From Desulfurococcales archaeon (GTDB taxonomy: Archaea; Thermoproteota; Thermoprotei_A; Sulfolobales; Desulfurococcaceae), in assembly GCA_026985375.1 (NCBI GenBank), contig JALSQP010000058.1, forward strand, positions 1 to 13,864: 13,864 nt of DNA, written 5' to 3'. Shown here piece after piece: positions 2,655 to 13,130 of this stretch. The notes beneath the pieces were generated by a model. That model was not told the DNA's origin. It was given only the letters and a program-made list of their open reading frames with translations, and made no database searches. Numbering within the stretch: the stretch's first letter is position 1; each line of letters begins with the position of its first letter. A program made the position numbers and the translations under genes.

Positions 2655-2960
2655 TTATAACAGAGTCGAGGGTTTTTGTCCTACAGCATTGTTGTATGCC
2701 CGCCTCAGACCATTAAGCAGATCCTCGACAGTTATACCTAGGAGGTAAGAATTTTCGACGAGTTCCATCGTCACAGCAAGGGCATCATCAAGCCTGCATC
2801 CGAGAAGCTTCTTCTCGATATCATTTATCAGAGTCTCGGGATAGGAGAAGAAATCACCACTTATAAAACACTTCCTTATAATACCCTGTGTGTCGACCAA
2901 GAGATCAATTATCAGGGTCTTCCCAGCCCTGGATCTTATGATGCTCCTGCCCCACCTCAT
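2655..2960 (-). CDS. lplB: Lipoate-protein ligase accessory subunit LplB
   Basis: A 101-residue protein matching the separate small subunit of archaeal split lipoate-protein ligases, as in Thermoplasma acidophilum. There the domain equivalent to the C-terminus of bacterial LplA is its own protein and is needed for adenylation of lipoate. Visible marks are a GKTLIIDLLVD strand near residues 13-23, the ISGDFFSYPETLINDIEKKLLG block at about 33-54, and a short helical C-terminus. Its ATG overlaps the lplA stop codon (ATGA), the classic sign of translational coupling and of subunits made in fixed ratio. Together with LplA it would activate octanoate or lipoate with ATP and transfer it to a lysine on a carrier protein. 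Position and size weigh as much as motif here, since the family is short and diverse. Confidence 0.8.
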   Translation of the reverse strand: MRWGRSIIRSRAGKTLIIDLLVDTQGIIRKCFISGDFFSYPETLINDIEKKLLGCRLDDALAVTMELVENSYLLGITVEDLLNGLRRAYNNAVGQKPSTLL

Positions 2961-3724
2961 TTCCTAAACACCCATTCCTCGTCCTTGTACTTAGCGATGA
3001 GCTTCTCGGCTAGGAGTAGCTCTTCCTTGGTGAGGCGTGAGGGCTTAAGCTCTACGCCGAGAGCTTGGGAGAACCCTTTCTTCAATGCCTCAAGGACCTC
3101 TGAGAGCCCTGGTCTTCTACCAATTATTTCTGATAAAGTGGTGACTCGATCCCTTATTGATGAGACGCCGTGACTCTCCAGTTTCTCTCTAGGAGCTCTC
3201 AGGCATTGTGATAGCTTATCAAGATCTGTCGCGTACATGAATGTACCATGTTGTAGTAATGCTTTCTTCTTTCTCGTTTGTGCACTCCCGCTTATCTTCT
3301 TACCATCCACCACCACGTCGTTTATGGGCTTGAACTCTGCTCTCACACCGAAGATCCTGAGAGCATATACTATGCCTCTGCATATCCGTTGATAAGACTC
3401 AAGAACGTCTTCGCCTACATCACTTATATCTGCCACGACGCTATAGGTAACTTCTCCGGATCCGTCATGGTATACGCTCCCGCCGCCAGTGATCCTCCTT
3501 GTCAACGGTATTTCGTGCTCCCTTATGTAATCGAGATTAACGCTGTCCTTGACGCGCTGGAAATAACCTATGGTGACACCGCTCGGCAGTATCCTGTAGA
3601 GGCGGAGAGTATTTGGTATCTTGTCCTGCTCACGTAGCTGCAGCATCGCCTCGTCGAGGGCCATGCACCAGTACAGTTCTCCCTCATTGACTATGAGCCG
3701 CCACACAGCCAAGGAGACCACCAT
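2957..3724 (-). CDS. lplA: Lipoate/octanoate-protein ligase catalytic subunit LplA
   Basis: Catalytic subunit of a BPL/LplA/LipB-fold ligase. It would adenylate lipoate (or octanoate) and transfer it to the lipoyl lysine of GcvH or E2 proteins in the cytoplasm. Numbered from the ATG at 3724 (255 residues), the visible motifs are VTIGYFQRVKDSVNLDY (near 50-66), the nucleotide/acyl-pocket loop RRITGGGSVYHD (76-87), NDVVVDGKKISGSAQ (135-149) with the conserved lysine of the GKKIxGSA motif, and a following HGT. The frame opens at a GTG at 3751, but that codon sits right beside the probable TATA box at 3754-3765. The ATG at 3724 gives a leader of about 10 nt and an N-terminus like known LplA proteins (MVVSLAVWRLI), so I prefer it. 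The gene is coupled to lplB by an ATGA overlap and divergent from lipS1-lipS2. Because a lipoyl synthase pair lies next to it, octanoate may be the natural substrate; that is inference. Confidence 0.9.
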   Translation of the reverse strand: MVVSLAVWRLIVNEGELYWCMALDEAMLQLREQDKIPNTLRLYRILPSGVTIGYFQRVKDSVNLDYIREHEIPLTRRITGGGSVYHDGSGEVTYSVVADISDVGEDVLESYQRICRGIVYALRIFGVRAEFKPINDVVVDGKKISGSAQTRKKKALLQHGTFMYATDLDKLSQCLRAPREKLESHGVSSIRDRVTTLSEIIGRRPGLSEVLEALKKGFSQALGVELKPSRLTKEELLLAEKLIAKYKDEEWVFRK

Positions 3725-3753
3725 GTACAGGATACAGCATATACGGAACACAC

Positions 3754-3765
3754 ATAATTATTATT
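3754..3765. promoter_or_regulatory. Shared AT-rich core of a divergent promoter for lplA-lplB and lipS1-lipS2
   Basis: The 12-base all-A/T block ATAATTATTATT is the only strong TATA-like element in the 67-bp gap. On the plus strand it predicts initiation near 3786-3788, just before the lipS1 GTG at 3792 (leaderless or nearly so). On the minus strand it predicts initiation near 3733, about 10 nt before the lplA ATG at 3724. One element could thus direct both transcripts, so ligase and synthase may be expressed together. Confidence 0.5.
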
Positions 3766-3791
3766 GCTCTTAGAACAACACGGTTGAGTAG

Positions 3792-4760
3792 GTGCCGAAA
3801 ACAATGCTTATCAGGGCTTCTATCGGCAGCCAGGCTGTACTTGGTCTCATGAGCCTTAGAATGCTTGTTGCCCCCACTACGATATATCTGCTACAATACT
3901 CGCCAACGGGCTGTGGCGGAGGATGCATATATTGTCCTCAGAGCCGCAGGTATAGTGGAGACAGCAACTATGTGTCTAGGATCGAGTGGCCGCCCGTAGA
4001 TCTTGAAGTCGTAAAAGATGCTCTTCGAAGCTATGATAACTATTCAAGAGTGTGTCTTCAATCTGTACTTAAACCGGGCTGGATCAATGAATATATAGTT
4101 CTCGCAAGAGAGATCAGGAGATCAACGTCTAAGCCGATCAGTGCGGCAGTGAACATAATGGATCACGATAAGCTTGAAAAACTCAGAGAAATAGGTGTCG
4201 ATAGAGTCGGTGTCGGTCTAGACGCGGCATCACCACGCGTATTCATGAAGACGGGAAAGCCTGGAACATGGAATGCTTATTGGTGTTTTATTCGTGATTC
4301 TATAAAGGTTTTCGGAGAAGACAATGTAACAGTGCATATAATACTCGGCCTAGGAGAAACCGAGGAGGAAATAATCAAAACACTCGTAGGGATATATGGC
4401 GAAGGAGCTAGAGCGGCTCTCTTCGCGTATACCCATGCTCCGGGGACTATGAGGATCGGTGGTCAACCAGACATATACTACTATAGGAAAATACAGGTTC
4501 TAAACTATCTTCTCAGTAGAAGATGGAGCCCGGAAGAGCTTTTCAGGGATAACCATGTTAGGCACGAGATAGCCGAGATGATCAGAGAACACCCGTTTAA
4601 ATACCTGGAAGCAGTGCTCACGAGCGGATGCCCAGGCTGTAACAGGCCTTTCTATAATGAGAGGCCTGGGGGCCCGATCTACAACTATCCCTCCCATAAA
4701 CTGCTTGATAGAGATAAGGAGAGAGTAGCCAGTGAGATCAGAAAGGCTTTCGAGATGTAG
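3792..4760 (+). CDS. lipS1: Radical SAM lipoyl synthase subunit, LipS1-like
   Basis: A 322-residue radical SAM protein formerly classed as biotin-synthase-related. The radical SAM cluster motif is CGGGCIYC (Cys41, Cys45, Cys48; CX3CX2C). A glycine-rich GVDRVGVGLDAASP segment follows (about 154-167), then HIILGLGETEEE (about 187-198). Near the C-terminus the block TSGCPGCNRPFYNERPGG (Cys280, Cys283) could supply ligands to an auxiliary iron-sulfur cluster, as sulfur-inserting enzymes require. In Thermococcus kodakarensis two radical SAM proteins, LipS1 and LipS2, jointly insert sulfur at C6 and C8 of the octanoyl chain, replacing LipA. The tandem pair beside lplA-lplB fits that system. Which of the two is S1 is my judgement from motif resemblance. 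The GTG at 3792 fits the TATA position; an ATG lies four codons later. Spacing to the next gene is four bases. Other sulfur-inserting or biotin-synthase-like roles are less likely given the context. Confidence 0.75.
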   Translation: MPKTMLIRASIGSQAVLGLMSLRMLVAPTTIYLLQYSPTGCGGGCIYCPQSRRYSGDSNYVSRIEWPPVDLEVVKDALRSYDNYSRVCLQSVLKPGWINEYIVLAREIRRSTSKPISAAVNIMDHDKLEKLREIGVDRVGVGLDAASPRVFMKTGKPGTWNAYWCFIRDSIKVFGEDNVTVHIILGLGETEEEIIKTLVGIYGEGARAALFAYTHAPGTMRIGGQPDIYYYRKIQVLNYLLSRRWSPEELFRDNHVRHEIAEMIREHPFKYLEAVLTSGCPGCNRPFYNERPGGPIYNYPSHKLLDRDKERVASEIRKAFEM

Positions 4761-4764
4761 TGTC

Positions 4765-5619
4765 ATGCCTAGAAGAAGCACCAAGGCCTACATACCCGGA
4801 AAGACTTTTCCCTCCGTAAGCATAACTGGGACGCGGTGTTGGCTGCAGTGTAGATACTGTATGGCTAGATATCTTGGGCAAATGGAGCATGTCGATACAC
4901 CTGAGGGTCTGTACTGGTATGCCCGACAGATAAGCAAGATGGGTGGCCGCGGATTACTGGTTAGCGGAGGCTACACAGTGGATGGGAAGCTACCTTTTAA
5001 GCCATTCTTGTCGGGCATTAAGAGGATAAAAAAGGAGCTAGGCCTAATAATCAGTATTCACCCGGGCCTCGTTGATCGTGTGGAGGCGGAACAACTGAGA
5101 GATGCGGGCGTGGATATTGTCGACTACGAGCTTATCCTTGATGAGATGGTTATTAGACATGTATTGGGTCTTAAGAGAACACCAGACGATTTTATCAGGT
5201 CTTTCGAGTACCTTCTTAACCATGGCCCATCATACGTGGCGCCTCATTTATTGGTTGGCGCCAATTATGGGGTTATTTCATGGGAGTATAAAGCCGTAGA
5301 TCTGCTTGCATCATACAATCCGTACATGATAGTATTTCTCTCCTTGATACCGACAAAATATACTCCAATGGAAAAAGTGTCTCCGCCATCGCCTAGCTCG
5401 TTCATCAGACTACTTAGATATGCCCGTGAAAAACACCCATCTTGGATTATCAGCGTAGGCTGTATGAGGCCTAGGCAATACAAGGTCCGTGTGGATCCCA
5501 TCATTATTGATAATGAGTTAGCGGATAGGATAGTATTACCTCGCCGAGAATACATTATAGAATACGACTTAGAAGTAGTGAATGCTTGTTGTTCCGTCCC
5601 GGATGAGCTACTCTATTAG
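4765..5619 (+). CDS. lipS2: Radical SAM lipoyl synthase subunit, LipS2-like
   Basis: A second radical SAM protein, 284 residues from the ATG at 4765, four bases after the lipS1 stop. The CX3CX2C motif is CWLQCRYC (Cys25, Cys29, Cys32), preceded by FPSVSITGTR, a start typical of the uncharacterised archaeal biotin-synthase homologues to which LipS2 belongs. Other blocks are LLVSGGYTVDGKLP (about 64-77), SIHPGLVD (about 97-104) and a late ISVGCMRPR (Cys233). The last residues hold an adjacent cysteine pair, NACCSVPDELLY (Cys275, Cys276). These extra cysteines are candidate ligands for a second cluster or a sulfur carrier. The frame is open to a GTG at 4732, which would overlap lipS1 by 29 bases and add 11 residues with no family resemblance, so I reject that start. 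Proposed role: with LipS1, insertion of the two sulfurs into protein-bound octanoate. The pair could in principle modify another substrate, but the ligase next door argues for lipoate. Confidence 0.75.
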   Translation: MPRRSTKAYIPGKTFPSVSITGTRCWLQCRYCMARYLGQMEHVDTPEGLYWYARQISKMGGRGLLVSGGYTVDGKLPFKPFLSGIKRIKKELGLIISIHPGLVDRVEAEQLRDAGVDIVDYELILDEMVIRHVLGLKRTPDDFIRSFEYLLNHGPSYVAPHLLVGANYGVISWEYKAVDLLASYNPYMIVFLSLIPTKYTPMEKVSPPSPSSFIRLLRYAREKHPSWIISVGCMRPRQYKVRVDPIIIDNELADRIVLPRREYIIEYDLEVVNACCSVPDELLY

Positions 5620-5655: not shown

Positions 5656-5696
5656 GATATATTAATTGAGGGAGAAGCAATCCTCAGGGGCGAGGT
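5656..5696 (+). promoter_or_regulatory. Promoter and ribosome site deciding the start of the cyclodeaminase-family gene
   Basis: A TATA-like GATATATTA (5656-5664) predicts initiation near 5684-5688, and a GAGGT Shine-Dalgarno core lies at 5692-5696, eight bases before a TTG at 5705. This rules against the more upstream in-frame TTG at 5666, which would lie before the expected transcript start. The gene is therefore probably not just read through from lipS2, although the gap is only 85 bases. Confidence 0.5.
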
Positions 5697-5704
5697 CAAA
5701 GGTC

Positions 5705-6673
5705 TTGGTCCGTATACTTGTCCTTACAGCCCAGGATCTCTTAGAGCTTCTGGATCCTAAGAGTCTCGTTGACGCCATAGCACAGGCCTTCAAAAAGTAC
5801 AGCAAGGGAGAAACAGTTACGCCACCACGAACGGTATTCTATGTCGAGGGTAACTGGTGGGGAATCATGCAGAGCTATGTGCCGGGGGAGGGAGTCGGCG
5901 TTAAAGTCGTGAATATAATACCGTCGAACAGGGAAAGAGGTCTCCCAACCATACAAGCCCTGGTATCCCTCTATGACCCAGTAACCGGTTCTCCGCAGGC
6001 GATCATGGAGGGCGGAGTACTTACAGCCCTCCGAACAGCAGCTGCATCGGCTCTCTCGGTCAAGCTTCTCGCACCCAAGGAGAAGGGGGCCGTGGCAGTT
6101 ATTGGTACTGGTTACCAGGCAAGATTCCAGCTTCGCTTTATAAAGGAGTACTACAGGCCAAGCCAGGTCAGGATCTATGATATAAGGAGAGAGGCTATGG
6201 AGGAATATAAAAGGTTTGTCGAGGAAGAGCTGGGACTCGAAGTCTACATGGCTAAAGACCATAGAGACTGTATCAAGGGTGCTAGAATAGTTGTTGAGGC
6301 ATCGACAACGAAGGACCCAGTAATATATGGAGATGTACTCGAGCCACCAGTACATATTGTAAGCATAGGTGCGCACACCCCTACGGCGAGAGCACTTGAT
6401 GATGAAGCCATTGAGAAAGTGGACTTGATAGTTGTGGATTCTAGAAAAGCGGTGATGGAGGAAGCCGGAGACATAAGAATACCTGTTCAGAAGGGATTGA
6501 TCAAAATGGAGGATCTCGTGGAGCTGGGAGAACTTGTAGAGAAGGGATTAGATGAGAGACCAGCCATTACGCTATTCAAGAGTGTAGGGCTTGCAATACA
6601 AGATGCTTGCGCCGCAGGACTGGCCTATAAGAAAGCATTGGAGAAAGGCCTAGGCAAATGGATCAGTATTTAG
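5705..6673 (+). CDS. Ornithine cyclodeaminase / mu-crystallin family NAD(P)-dependent enzyme
   Basis: Taken from the TTG at 5705 the protein has 322 residues, the family's normal length, and begins MVRILVLTAQDLLELLD as relatives do. Family marks are Lys67 in GVGVKVVNI, GLPTIQALVSLYDPVTGSPQ (about 79-98), the TALRTAAASALS block with Arg110, the Rossmann dinucleotide loop GTGYQA (134-139), SIGAHTPTARALDDE in place of the more common GADxP form, and FKSVGLAIQDACAAG near the C-terminus with Asp300. Members catalyse NAD-linked reactions on amino or imino acids: ornithine to proline plus ammonia, alanine dehydrogenation (archaeal AlaDH), or ketimine reduction. Sequence alone does not settle which; archaeal members are often alanine dehydrogenases. 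All residues expected for cofactor and carboxylate binding seem present. It follows lipS2 on the same strand but has its own promoter, so a link with lipoate metabolism is not supported. Confidence 0.88.
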   Translation: MVRILVLTAQDLLELLDPKSLVDAIAQAFKKYSKGETVTPPRTVFYVEGNWWGIMQSYVPGEGVGVKVVNIIPSNRERGLPTIQALVSLYDPVTGSPQAIMEGGVLTALRTAAASALSVKLLAPKEKGAVAVIGTGYQARFQLRFIKEYYRPSQVRIYDIRREAMEEYKRFVEEELGLEVYMAKDHRDCIKGARIVVEASTTKDPVIYGDVLEPPVHIVSIGAHTPTARALDDEAIEKVDLIVVDSRKAVMEEAGDIRIPVQKGLIKMEDLVELGELVEKGLDERPAITLFKSVGLAIQDACAAGLAYKKALEKGLGKWISI

Positions 6674-6701
6674 CCTGTCCATCCTATGGAGAAACATAAT
6701 A

Positions 6702-6713
6702 TTATTCTTTTTT
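6702..6713 (+). terminator. T-rich archaeal-type terminator after the cyclodeaminase-family gene
   Basis: A pyrimidine/T-rich tract ending in six consecutive T residues (6708-6713) lies about 30 bases after the stop codon and has no hairpin before it. T-tracts alone commonly end archaeal transcripts. Confidence 0.4.
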
Positions 6714-6760
6714 AAACATGGTTAGGCCTATTGCATGTCTATTCTTGGGAAAAGATAATC

Positions 6761-6770
6761 ATTAAAAATA
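6761..6770 (+). promoter_or_regulatory. TATA box of the HprK-like gene
   Basis: The AT-only stretch ATTAAAAATA is centred about 29 bases before the GTG at 6795, which predicts a leaderless message starting at or a few bases before that codon. No Shine-Dalgarno core precedes the GTG, as expected for a leaderless gene. Confidence 0.5.
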
Positions 6771-6794
6771 GGCGCTTATGTCTTAACAAGAAGT

Positions 6795-7763
6795 GTGGAT
6801 GATAATCCGGCCGAGCTGGTCATAATGGCCTCCGAGCTAACACTGTGGATGACCTCTTCAACCCTCAGGATAAGATCAGATTCTATAGGAGAAATCCTTT
6901 CAGGCCTCAAGACCAGCTTCGCGGGACGCTATATCCCGAACTTCACAATAACTAGGGGGGACTCAGGAGATCCTGACGCCGTTATTGATTGGATAAGTGC
7001 TCGTGAAGGCTTTAGAGTAAACGAGATAAAGATCAATTGCTACCCGGAATACTATCGCATAACGAGTGCTCCTCCAAAACCATATATTAACGAAGCACCA
7101 TATTTCTTCATCCTACAAGTTCTCAGCAGATTGTCAACACGTAGATCTCAGATCGTGTTCACGGATACTGTGAGCTTCGTCGATGAAAGTGGAAGAGCAG
7201 TCATGCTTATGGGATATCCTCATACGGGTAAAAGCACCCTTACAGCCATTGCTCTCAGCAAGGGCTACATACCACTAACAACCGAGAATACAGTGGTAGA
7301 TGCGTCCGGCGGGGATCCAACCATCGTTGGTGGGACCGGAATATTAGTCTACGACCCCGCTATCAGAGAATTATATGGGGTCAAGACACCTGTTCATGAG
7401 AAAACACGCCACGGGTACCTCGTGGTTGATCTTGATAAGGTCGTCCCTGAGCGCCGCGAGTACTTGGAGAGCGGAGTAGTGATTGATAGGCTGTACGTCC
7501 TACACTGTAGTTTTTCGAGCAAGGGATCGGACTATAAGTTGATCAGGGGGAGGAAAATAGCTAAGACACTCTGGTACTTCGCGACAGCTCTTGTGAAGGG
7601 TGTGGATTACTATGAACCTTACCCCTTAGACCTAGCGACGGCCGAGGTGATGAAGCCCATAGGTAGGGCGATCAAGGACATGTCTGTCAAGTATGACGGC
7701 CGATTCTATGAGGTATTCGGAAGACATGACAAGGTTTTCGAGATGATTGTAGAGATGAAATAA
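6795..7763 (+). CDS. HprK-like P-loop protein (possible small-molecule or protein kinase)
   Basis: A 322-residue soluble protein. Residues 1-130 form an unrecognised N-terminal domain. A strand (GRAVMLMG) then leads into a Walker A loop GYPHTGKST (140-148). A helix and the segment KGYIPLTTENTVVD (about 155-168) follow, in the place where HPr kinase/phosphorylase-like proteins carry the acidic switch after the P-loop, here with Glu and Asp candidates. Next comes GGTGILVYDP and a 'DRLYVLHCSF' strand. This arrangement resembles the HprK C-terminal kinase fold and its archaeal relatives of unknown substrate. No PTS gene is near, so HPr itself is an unlikely target. The start is the GTG at 6795, supported by TATA spacing; an ATG at 6825 is the alternative. 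The gene converges on the ABC permease with one base between stops, so it is a single-gene unit. The P-loop is certain, the HprK assignment likely, the substrate unknown. Confidence 0.65.
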   Translation: MDDNPAELVIMASELTLWMTSSTLRIRSDSIGEILSGLKTSFAGRYIPNFTITRGDSGDPDAVIDWISAREGFRVNEIKINCYPEYYRITSAPPKPYINEAPYFFILQVLSRLSTRRSQIVFTDTVSFVDESGRAVMLMGYPHTGKSTLTAIALSKGYIPLTTENTVVDASGGDPTIVGGTGILVYDPAIRELYGVKTPVHEKTRHGYLVVDLDKVVPERREYLESGVVIDRLYVLHCSFSSKGSDYKLIRGRKIAKTLWYFATALVKGVDYYEPYPLDLATAEVMKPIGRAIKDMSVKYDGRFYEVFGRHDKVFEMIVEMK

Positions 7764-12221: not shown

Positions 12222-12228
12222 TTACAAG
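12207..12228. repeat. Tandem palindromes at the 3' end of the 302-residue gene
   Basis: GTGATCAC (12207-12214), a perfect eight-bp palindrome, abuts CTTGTAGTTACAAG (12215-12228), which has perfect six-bp arms and a two-base centre. The second spans the stop codon of the gene ending at 12222. The pair could be a protein-binding site, or a fold at the transcript end; the loop is too short for a simple hairpin. Confidence 0.35.
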
Positions 12229-13130
12229 CTTAGATTAACATCTGTATCTAATGGATATGTGGTCTGTACGGCTTCCCGGAGACTCATATAGTCTATCAGC
12301 ATGTCGGGGGAGACCTGTGGAGCCATTATGTCGTGTTCTACATACTCTAATGTGCTTGGCTTTGCAAAGTATACTCCATACGCTGTTATATATAGTCTGA
12401 GGACCTCCATGGGGTAATCAATATGTTTTAGCAATTCTATGCCCGGCTCAACAATGATCATAGATCCTGTGGAAAGGCTCTCTCCGTATTTTTCAGCGAT
12501 TATCAGGGCAATTGTTTTCACAGCTCTTGTGATCAAATCTGGGTCTAGATCTAAAGCTTTGCATGGGGAAACAAGTCTAGCCATAGGAATTAATGCCTCA
12601 TATATAGGGAGATTAATAAATAGTCCAAGCGGTATATAGCCCGCCCATAAATAGAGCACTGGTATTTTGACGGAGAAAGGCATGTATGGTGGGAGTACTC
12701 TAAGGAATAATAAATTATAGTTATCAAGATAATCAACATAGATCAGTCCGCCGATTCTCTTCGTCTTCTCGAGAAACTTTATGATGCAGTGATCATCATC
12801 CAGGCAAAGAGACTTTGCAGGCCATTCCAGTAATTCTCCTAACCTTTTAGAAGATTCTTTAACGAGTTCAAGCCAGCCAGGTAGGCCAGACAACATGTAT
12901 TTCTGGACAGCCACGATACGCTCTTCCAGTTTCTCCTCCACACATTTGCCTAGCATGAGGAACGAGTAGACGGGTATCTCTTCGGGGACCTTAACATAGA
13001 AGATCCGGCGCTTCACATCATTAACCCGTATTTTACCGATCGGACGTGTCTCAATCCTGTCAACTCCATAGCGCATCTTCAACTTCTCTATAAAGGTCTC
13101 AAGGAGCTTATGGTCCGGACAAATATGCAT
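12222..13130 (-). CDS. Unrecognised 302-residue protein
   Basis: I do not recognise the family. The protein is probably soluble and cytoplasmic, with no signal peptide. The N-terminal 50 residues look like an alpha/beta unit (helix HKLLETFIEKLKMRYG, then a basic strand region). The middle has a Cys-Leu-Asp-Asp-Asp-His-Cys element (Cys109 to Cys115) that could bind metal or form a disulfide. The segment from about 127 to 185 is very hydrophobic and aromatic (LLFLRVLPPYMPFSVKIPVLYLWAGYIPLGLFINLP) and might be a buried core or a membrane-associated hairpin. The C-terminal part is helical. Start ATG at 13130 follows a GTGGAG core on the minus strand with about eight bases between, supporting real translation. 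It is divergent from the membrane-anchored gene to the right, with a 155-base gap carrying promoters for both. No functional claim is supported. Confidence 0.75.
   Translation of the reverse strand: MHICPDHKLLETFIEKLKMRYGVDRIETRPIGKIRVNDVKRRIFYVKVPEEIPVYSFLMLGKCVEEKLEERIVAVQKYMLSGLPGWLELVKESSKRLGELLEWPAKSLCLDDDHCIIKFLEKTKRIGGLIYVDYLDNYNLLFLRVLPPYMPFSVKIPVLYLWAGYIPLGLFINLPIYEALIPMARLVSPCKALDLDPDLITRAVKTIALIIAEKYGESLSTGSMIIVEPGIELLKHIDYPMEVLRLYITAYGVYFAKPSTLEYVEHDIMAPQVSPDMLIDYMSLREAVQTTYPLDTDVNLSL

Follow-up and report, generated by a model that had tools for sequence, protein, structure and literature searches.

A divergent lplB-lplA/lipS2-lipS1 gene cluster with a probable role in lipoyl assembly in a Desulfurococcales archaeon

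The Desulfurococcales archaeon of GenBank assembly GCA_026985375.1 carries, between positions 2655 and 5619 of contig JALSQP010000058.1, four genes that we assign with high confidence to lipoyl assembly of the LplAB-LipS1/S2 type. Two of them encode a split lipoate-protein ligase and diverge from the other two, whose products are radical S-adenosylmethionine (SAM) proteins assigned here to LipS1 and LipS2; the chemistry, substrate and step order are inferred from characterised homologues. The contig, analysed over its whole length of 13,864 nucleotides and called the window below, is contig 58 of a genome (G000) whose 164 contigs total 990,945 bases, with a completeness of 69.49% and a contamination of 0.15%. 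G000 was compared with 60 relatives picked by a search tool (61 genomes in all), using match-strength thresholds set by the analyst. The features of the cluster are as follows.

2655..2960, minus strand: lplB, accessory subunit of a split lipoate-protein ligase, 101 residues
2957..3751, minus strand: lplA, catalytic subunit of the split ligase, 264 residues as listed; probable start ATG 3724 (255 residues)
3754..3765, no strand: conserved 12-bp AT element ATAATTATTATT in the interval between lplA and lipS2; candidate TATA element for both
3792..4760, plus strand: lipS2, radical SAM protein predicted to place sulfur at C8 of octanoyl-lysine; start probably at ATG 3804 (318 residues)
4765..5619, plus strand: lipS1, radical SAM protein predicted to place sulfur at C6; 284 residues, ATG 4765

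Identity of the four genes

The original prediction had described a ligase pair coupled through ATGA and divergent from two closely spaced radical SAM genes, and this layout was borne out in every part: the lplA stop and lplB start overlap (GAAATGAGG on the minus strand), and reading rightwards LipS2 comes first and LipS1 second, with 4 bases between the lipS2 stop and the lipS1 start. Translation of lipS2 likely begins at ATG 3804 rather than at GTG 3792, since the codon at 3804 is ATG, TTG or GTG in all five aligned genomes of the genus while GTG 3792 is not kept in congener G002. For lplA, ATG 3724 is the more likely start because only 3 bp separate GTG 3751 from the conserved AT element.

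Proteins from 10 of the 14 predicted genes of the window were scanned against NCBIfam and Pfam. The lipS2 product scored 283.5 bits against the LipS2 model NF053743 (equivalog cut-off 270) and the lipS1 product 262.4 bits against the LipS1 model NF053742 (cut-off 230), while the runner-up NCBIfam families reached at most 33 bits for either protein. Both proteins hold the CX3CX2C motif, starting at residue 41 in LipS2 and residue 25 in LipS1, together with the additional C-terminal cysteines that had been predicted (C280 and C283 in LipS2; C233, C275 and C276 in LipS1). The occurrence of the pair is not due to chance, because the motif is present in only three of the 54 stop-to-stop frames of at least 60 residues in the window (LipS2, LipS1 and an open reading frame recognised as Elp3 from its translation) and because the family scores are high.

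Residues known to matter in the enzymes of Thermococcus kodakarensis provide a more specific comparison. According to PMC9585515, the source used for these enzymes throughout, LipS1 of T. kodakarensis uses C27/C31/C34, C230, C276 and C277 as cluster ligands and needs H159 for activity, whereas the LipS2 ligands are C39/C43/C46, C85, C276, C279 and H178; LipS2 places sulfur at C8 of an octanoyl-lysyl substrate and LipS1 at C6 of the 8-mercaptooctanoyl-lysyl substrate. Matched by motif and number, the counterparts in window LipS1 are C25/C29/C32 for the SAM cluster and C233, C275, C276 and H161 for the auxiliary cluster; in window LipS2 they are C41/C45/C48 for the SAM cluster and C88, C280, C283 and H182 for the auxiliary cluster. 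All seven LipS2 positions are invariant in 32 of 32 aligned relatives, where the one other cysteine of the protein, C165, is not conserved; all seven LipS1 positions, and likewise H99, are invariant in 33 of 33. With curated equivalog models passed and every published cluster-ligand residue matched, the proposed assignment of the radical SAM pair to LipS1/LipS2 stands.

The relatives examined in this way come from a set of 33 loci drawn from 31 LipS-bearing relatives, from which G016, whose partial LipS2 match holds a stop, was excluded, as it was from the LipS2 count. Alignments A2 and A3 comprise 30 rows each, with relatives L151, L153 and L155 (and for LipS1 also L156) excluded. Trees without a BioB or TK outgroup, holding only the window sequences and their relatives, were built for LipS1 from 34 rows, for LipS2 from 33 and for LplA from 30 (after removal of L133, a 145-residue protein at a contig end, and L155, a 5-residue extraction); in all three the window sequences group with those of congeners. 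The nearest named records found are two metagenome-assembled 'Desulfurococcales archaeon' contigs with LipS2 identities of 90% and 86%, close relatives of G000 possibly having been excluded; a single-protein search of named genomes returned two close relatives and two weak, partial matches.

For the ligase, the lplA product matches PF21948 with 188.5 bits (Pfam cut-off 27) and the lplB product PF10437 with 32.4 bits (cut-off 24), giving the bipartite architecture of a PF21948 catalytic protein adjoining a separate PF10437 accessory protein. The top PDB sequence matches of LplA are 2ars (E 3.4e-34) and 3r07 (E 4.7e-34), which we take to be the large subunit of the Thermoplasma acidophilum split ligase, and window LplA is the sole PF21948 match in G000.

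Carrier, proposed route and alternatives

As predicted, a lipoyl-domain carrier is present in G000. A gcvH gene on contig C8 (150.4 bits) lies 15 bases after a gene named by reading as glyA, and its product carries the site ESVKATSD; the peptide converted by the T. kodakarensis enzymes is ESVKAASD (PMC9585515). The description of the cluster as a complete island consequently holds for ligase plus synthase, but not for the carrier gene, which sits on another contig. A second biotin/lipoyl-domain protein in G000 (592-residue frame) is of carboxylase type with the site ESMKMETD; it was rejected as a lipoyl carrier on this motif and its architecture, and is read as biotinyl. On contig C105 (L158), positions 2716-4470 encode a biotinylated carboxylase/decarboxylase-type subunit and positions 5923-7050 a membrane protein resembling the beta subunit of sodium-pumping oxaloacetate decarboxylase, both named by reading.

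The expected lack of a canonical lipA was provisionally confirmed, G000 being incomplete: no match over the cut-off was found in G000 or its five congeners, where matches reach at most about 34 bits (G000 best 26.6, cut-off 310.25), although four of the 61 genomes pass. No lipB match was found in G000 or the congeners, nor was an E2 match found in G000 or the five congeners; E2 occurs in 10 of the 61 genomes, two of them with LipS2.

In the route suggested by the homologues, LplA with LplB would activate free octanoate using ATP and attach it to the lipoyl lysine of GcvH, and could attach scavenged lipoate too. Sulfur would then be introduced by LipS2 at C8 and by LipS1 at C6; in each enzyme one [4Fe-4S] cluster would serve to cleave SAM, and the sulfur would come from a second, auxiliary cluster. 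The lipoylated GcvH would in turn serve the glycine cleavage system. That the ligase may act on octanoate first, as originally proposed, is backed by the route from free octanoic acid via LplAB and then LipS2/LipS1 that Tanabe et al. (PMC10332631) describe for archaea and bacteria.

The distribution of these genes bears on how the ligase is used. A strong LipS2 match was found in 31 of the 61 genomes; every one of these has LipS1 and LplA as well, while LipA over the cut-off occurs in none. Two further genomes have only partial LipS2 matches: G059, where the match lies at a contig end and LipS1 is full, and G016, where it contains a stop. Among the 45 genomes that are near-complete (completeness of at least 90%, contamination of no more than 5%), GcvH is matched strongly in 39, and LplA accompanies it in 39 of 39; LipS1/S2 is found in 24 of these, LipA in four and neither in 11 (G006, G012, G019, G023, G029, G034, G040, G044, G045, G047 and G054). 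The six near-complete genomes without GcvH include one with LplA, G017, which also has E2. In G006 and G019, lplB and lplA adjoin gcvH, which lies on the opposite strand.

The 11 genomes with LplA and neither synthase, in which the ligase alone seems sufficient, give some weight to the alternative that the window ligase chiefly scavenges free lipoate, with the LipS pair a seldom-used backup and the cluster not mainly devoted to de novo synthesis. Tanabe et al. (PMC10332631) also suggest that ancient archaea may have drawn primarily on free lipoate. We nevertheless judge this alternative improbable: both LipS proteins retain every assigned ligand, and their genes lie 4-5 bp apart in the window and in the four congeners that hold both.

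Several observations weigh against the assignment of the cluster to de novo lipoyl assembly on GcvH. LplA scored 232.6 bits against NF053750 (LplA_large), below the NCBIfam cut-off of 480, and LplB 44.2 bits against NF053749, below its cut-off of 65; the predicted split ligase is thus upheld by its Pfam domains and PDB relatives but falls short of the NCBIfam thresholds. Only seven of the 61 genomes pass the LplB cut-off, which is therefore strict for these archaea. Window LipS1 has no cysteine at the positions of C54 and C65 in the T. kodakarensis protein, where changing C65 cut activity moderately and changing C54 had no effect (PMC9585515). In congener G003 (81% complete), lipS2 and lplA gave no match, and neither lipS1 nor gcvH gave a strong one. 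Finally, gcvP gave no match in G000 or in congener G002 (79% complete), and at 69% completeness gene absences are weak evidence for G000 alone.

The missing gcvP could mean that the carrier has its role outside glycine cleavage. This reading was rejected as very unlikely, however, given that gcvP is found in congeners G001, G003, G004 and G005 and that the ends of the G000 contigs point to an assembly gap. In G005, gcvH-glyA and gcvT-gcvPA-gcvPB-lpd lie within 9 kb of one contig (names partly by reading), whereas in G000 contig C8 begins 34 bases ahead of glyA (base 35) and contig C69 (13,007 bases) ends within an lpd match at 12412-13005. Because C8 starts at glyA and C69 ends inside lpd, as in the order of G005, the gcvP gene of G000 and its missing neighbours very probably fall in the gap between these two contigs.

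The least credible alternative, that the radical SAM pair is biotin synthase-like or inserts sulfur into a different substrate, as many database labels have it, is rejected on family scores and residues: the bioB model TIGR00433 gave 32.5 bits for LipS2 and 26.2 for LipS1 (cut-off 225) against 283.5 and 262.4 for their own families, the auxiliary-cluster ligands agree with LipS2/LipS1, lplAB adjoins the pair, every genome with a strong LipS2 match (31 of 31) has LplA, and the published homologues produce lipoate (PMC9585515). Its attraction lies in the fact that biotin synthases are the only PDB sequence relatives at E 0.01 (1r30, E 6.5e-5 with the LipS2 profile and 0.0035 with the LipS1 profile; 8vcw, 0.0038 with LipS2), a single-sequence PDB search with LipS2 giving no match at that threshold, and in the names of LipS2 relatives. 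A biotin synthase or related label is carried by eight of 17 source-named LipS2 relatives (best 120 of 3426 matches) but by none of six named LipS1 relatives (among 36 matches listed), so the mislabelling that had been anticipated for both proteins is borne out among LipS2 relatives but not among the six named LipS1 relatives. The LipS2 matches listed include a homologue from Pyrodictium occultum. 'Lipoyl synthase' appears in none of the 23 source names, as far as printed, among the LipS1/LipS2 matches listed.

Arrangement among relatives and the intergenic AT element

In 19 of the 33 loci, corresponding to 19 of the 31 LipS-bearing relatives, lplA and lipS2 are divergent (within 200 bp) and lipS1, in the same orientation as lipS2, is within 60 bp of it; each of the remaining 14 loci is rearranged, more widely spaced, cut or without lplA nearby. 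The divergent layout is common to all four congeners that have the genes, and in 17 of the 19 divergent loci the gene immediately after lplA is lplB, the remaining two being G005 (L127), cut by a contig end, and G043 (L141), with none nearby. Genomes G046 (C1, C17) and G056 (C1) each have two separate lipS1-lipS2 sets, three lplA matches and three strong gcvH matches. One of their LipS sets is deeply divergent, with branches of 1.6 (LipS2) and 2.64 (LipS1) changes per column; that these additional sets are linked to sulfur oxidation is a guess.

The AT element between the divergent genes is identical in five aligned genomes of the genus, in which none of 200 sampled gene-body windows holds an A/T run of this length. 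It lies 30 bases upstream of lplA ATG 3724 and 39 bases upstream of lipS2 ATG 3804, a spacing that would fit a TATA element used for transcription both ways. Outside the genus the results for such runs are mixed: in five of 15 other loci (L128, L132, L134, L135 and L147) a run of this length is reached by over 10% of gene-body windows, and the run of L134 and L138 starts inside the assigned lplA. The idea of a shared promoter is for this reason supported only for the genus.

A broader proposal would have the organism make its own octanoate, by a route new to archaea, to feed de novo lipoate synthesis, with the AT element acting as a single bidirectional promoter that coordinates ligase and synthase and, more widely, the 11 ligase-only relatives perhaps using a third, unrecognised lipoyl synthase; taken together we regard this as tentative and rather unlikely. 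Archaea generally lack acyl carrier protein (Tanabe et al., PMC10332631), and no gene for an octanoate source or an electron donor was seen in the scan of 10 of the 14 predicted window genes.

Over the stretches compared, the other genes of the window hold their position within the genus only; outside it there were just ABC ATPase-type matches. Directly following lipS1 is a gene of the ornithine cyclodeaminase/mu-crystallin family (5666-6673, plus strand), which occupies this place in G000, G002, G004 (where a contig end cuts it) and G005; it was dropped as a candidate pathway member because it does not follow lipS1 in G001 and has no match at the fetched LipS loci outside the genus. A gene at 6795-7763 (plus strand) has a weak match to an HprK-related kinase (TIGR04352, 20.1 bits, cut-off 200) and lies near lipS1 in G001 and G002. 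Two minus-strand genes, at 1420-2502 (360 residues) and 12222-13130 (302 residues), are without a match in either Pfam or NCBIfam at E 0.001, and their products are kept in place in G001 with 77% and 81% identity.

Comparison with known systems

The pathway, the clustering and the 'biotin synthase' label are already in print, LipS1/LipS2 function and the label having been treated in PMC9585515, and the window is a clear but ordinary further example. Its small additions are the genus-conserved 12-bp AT element and the 11 of 39 near-complete GcvH genomes with the ligase and without a recognised synthase. Half of the examined genomes (31 of 61) have such an LplAB-LipS1/S2 unit, compact and self-consistent, whose likely client is GcvH, and public labels such as 'biotin synthase' can mask it. 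Since in near-complete genomes the ligase goes with GcvH without exception and the synthase is optional, a bounded question follows, namely whether ligase-only species depend on outside lipoate or on an unknown synthase.

The divergent layout was not met with in a literature search, which is weak evidence, as subscription papers and supplements lay largely outside its scope. Coupled LplA-N/LplA-C genes were reported for five Desulfurococcales (PMC3904984), the same archaeal group by name and a similarly coupled split ligase; in the text of that 2014 paper the term 'lipoyl synthase' is absent, so that it does not treat the synthase genes by that name. The ligase of PDB entries 2ars and 3r07 has its catalytic domain as a separate protein, like window LplA. 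T. acidophilum, unlike the window, has no lipoyl synthase (Tanabe et al., PMC10332631).

Clustering of lipS1/S2 with ligase genes is typical for archaea, and the LplAB/sLpl(AB)-LipS1/S2 clusters of archaea and bacteria described in PMC10332631 have the same gene set as the window. Unlike those clusters, the window has lplB-lplA divergent from lipS2-lipS1, and the scan of 10 of its 14 predicted genes gave no lipT-like match. In T. kodakarensis the LplAB genes form no cluster (Tanabe et al., PMC10332631), whereas in the window lipS2 and lipS1 are adjacent to each other beside lplAB. The closest parallel at the protein level is nonetheless with T. kodakarensis LipS1 (TK2109) and LipS2 (TK2248), which are alike in the CX3CX2C motif and, by motif and number, in the three auxiliary cysteines and the histidine; that organism is likewise without a classical lipoyl synthase gene, and the GcvH site of G000 is one residue off the peptide tested with its enzymes (PMC9585515).

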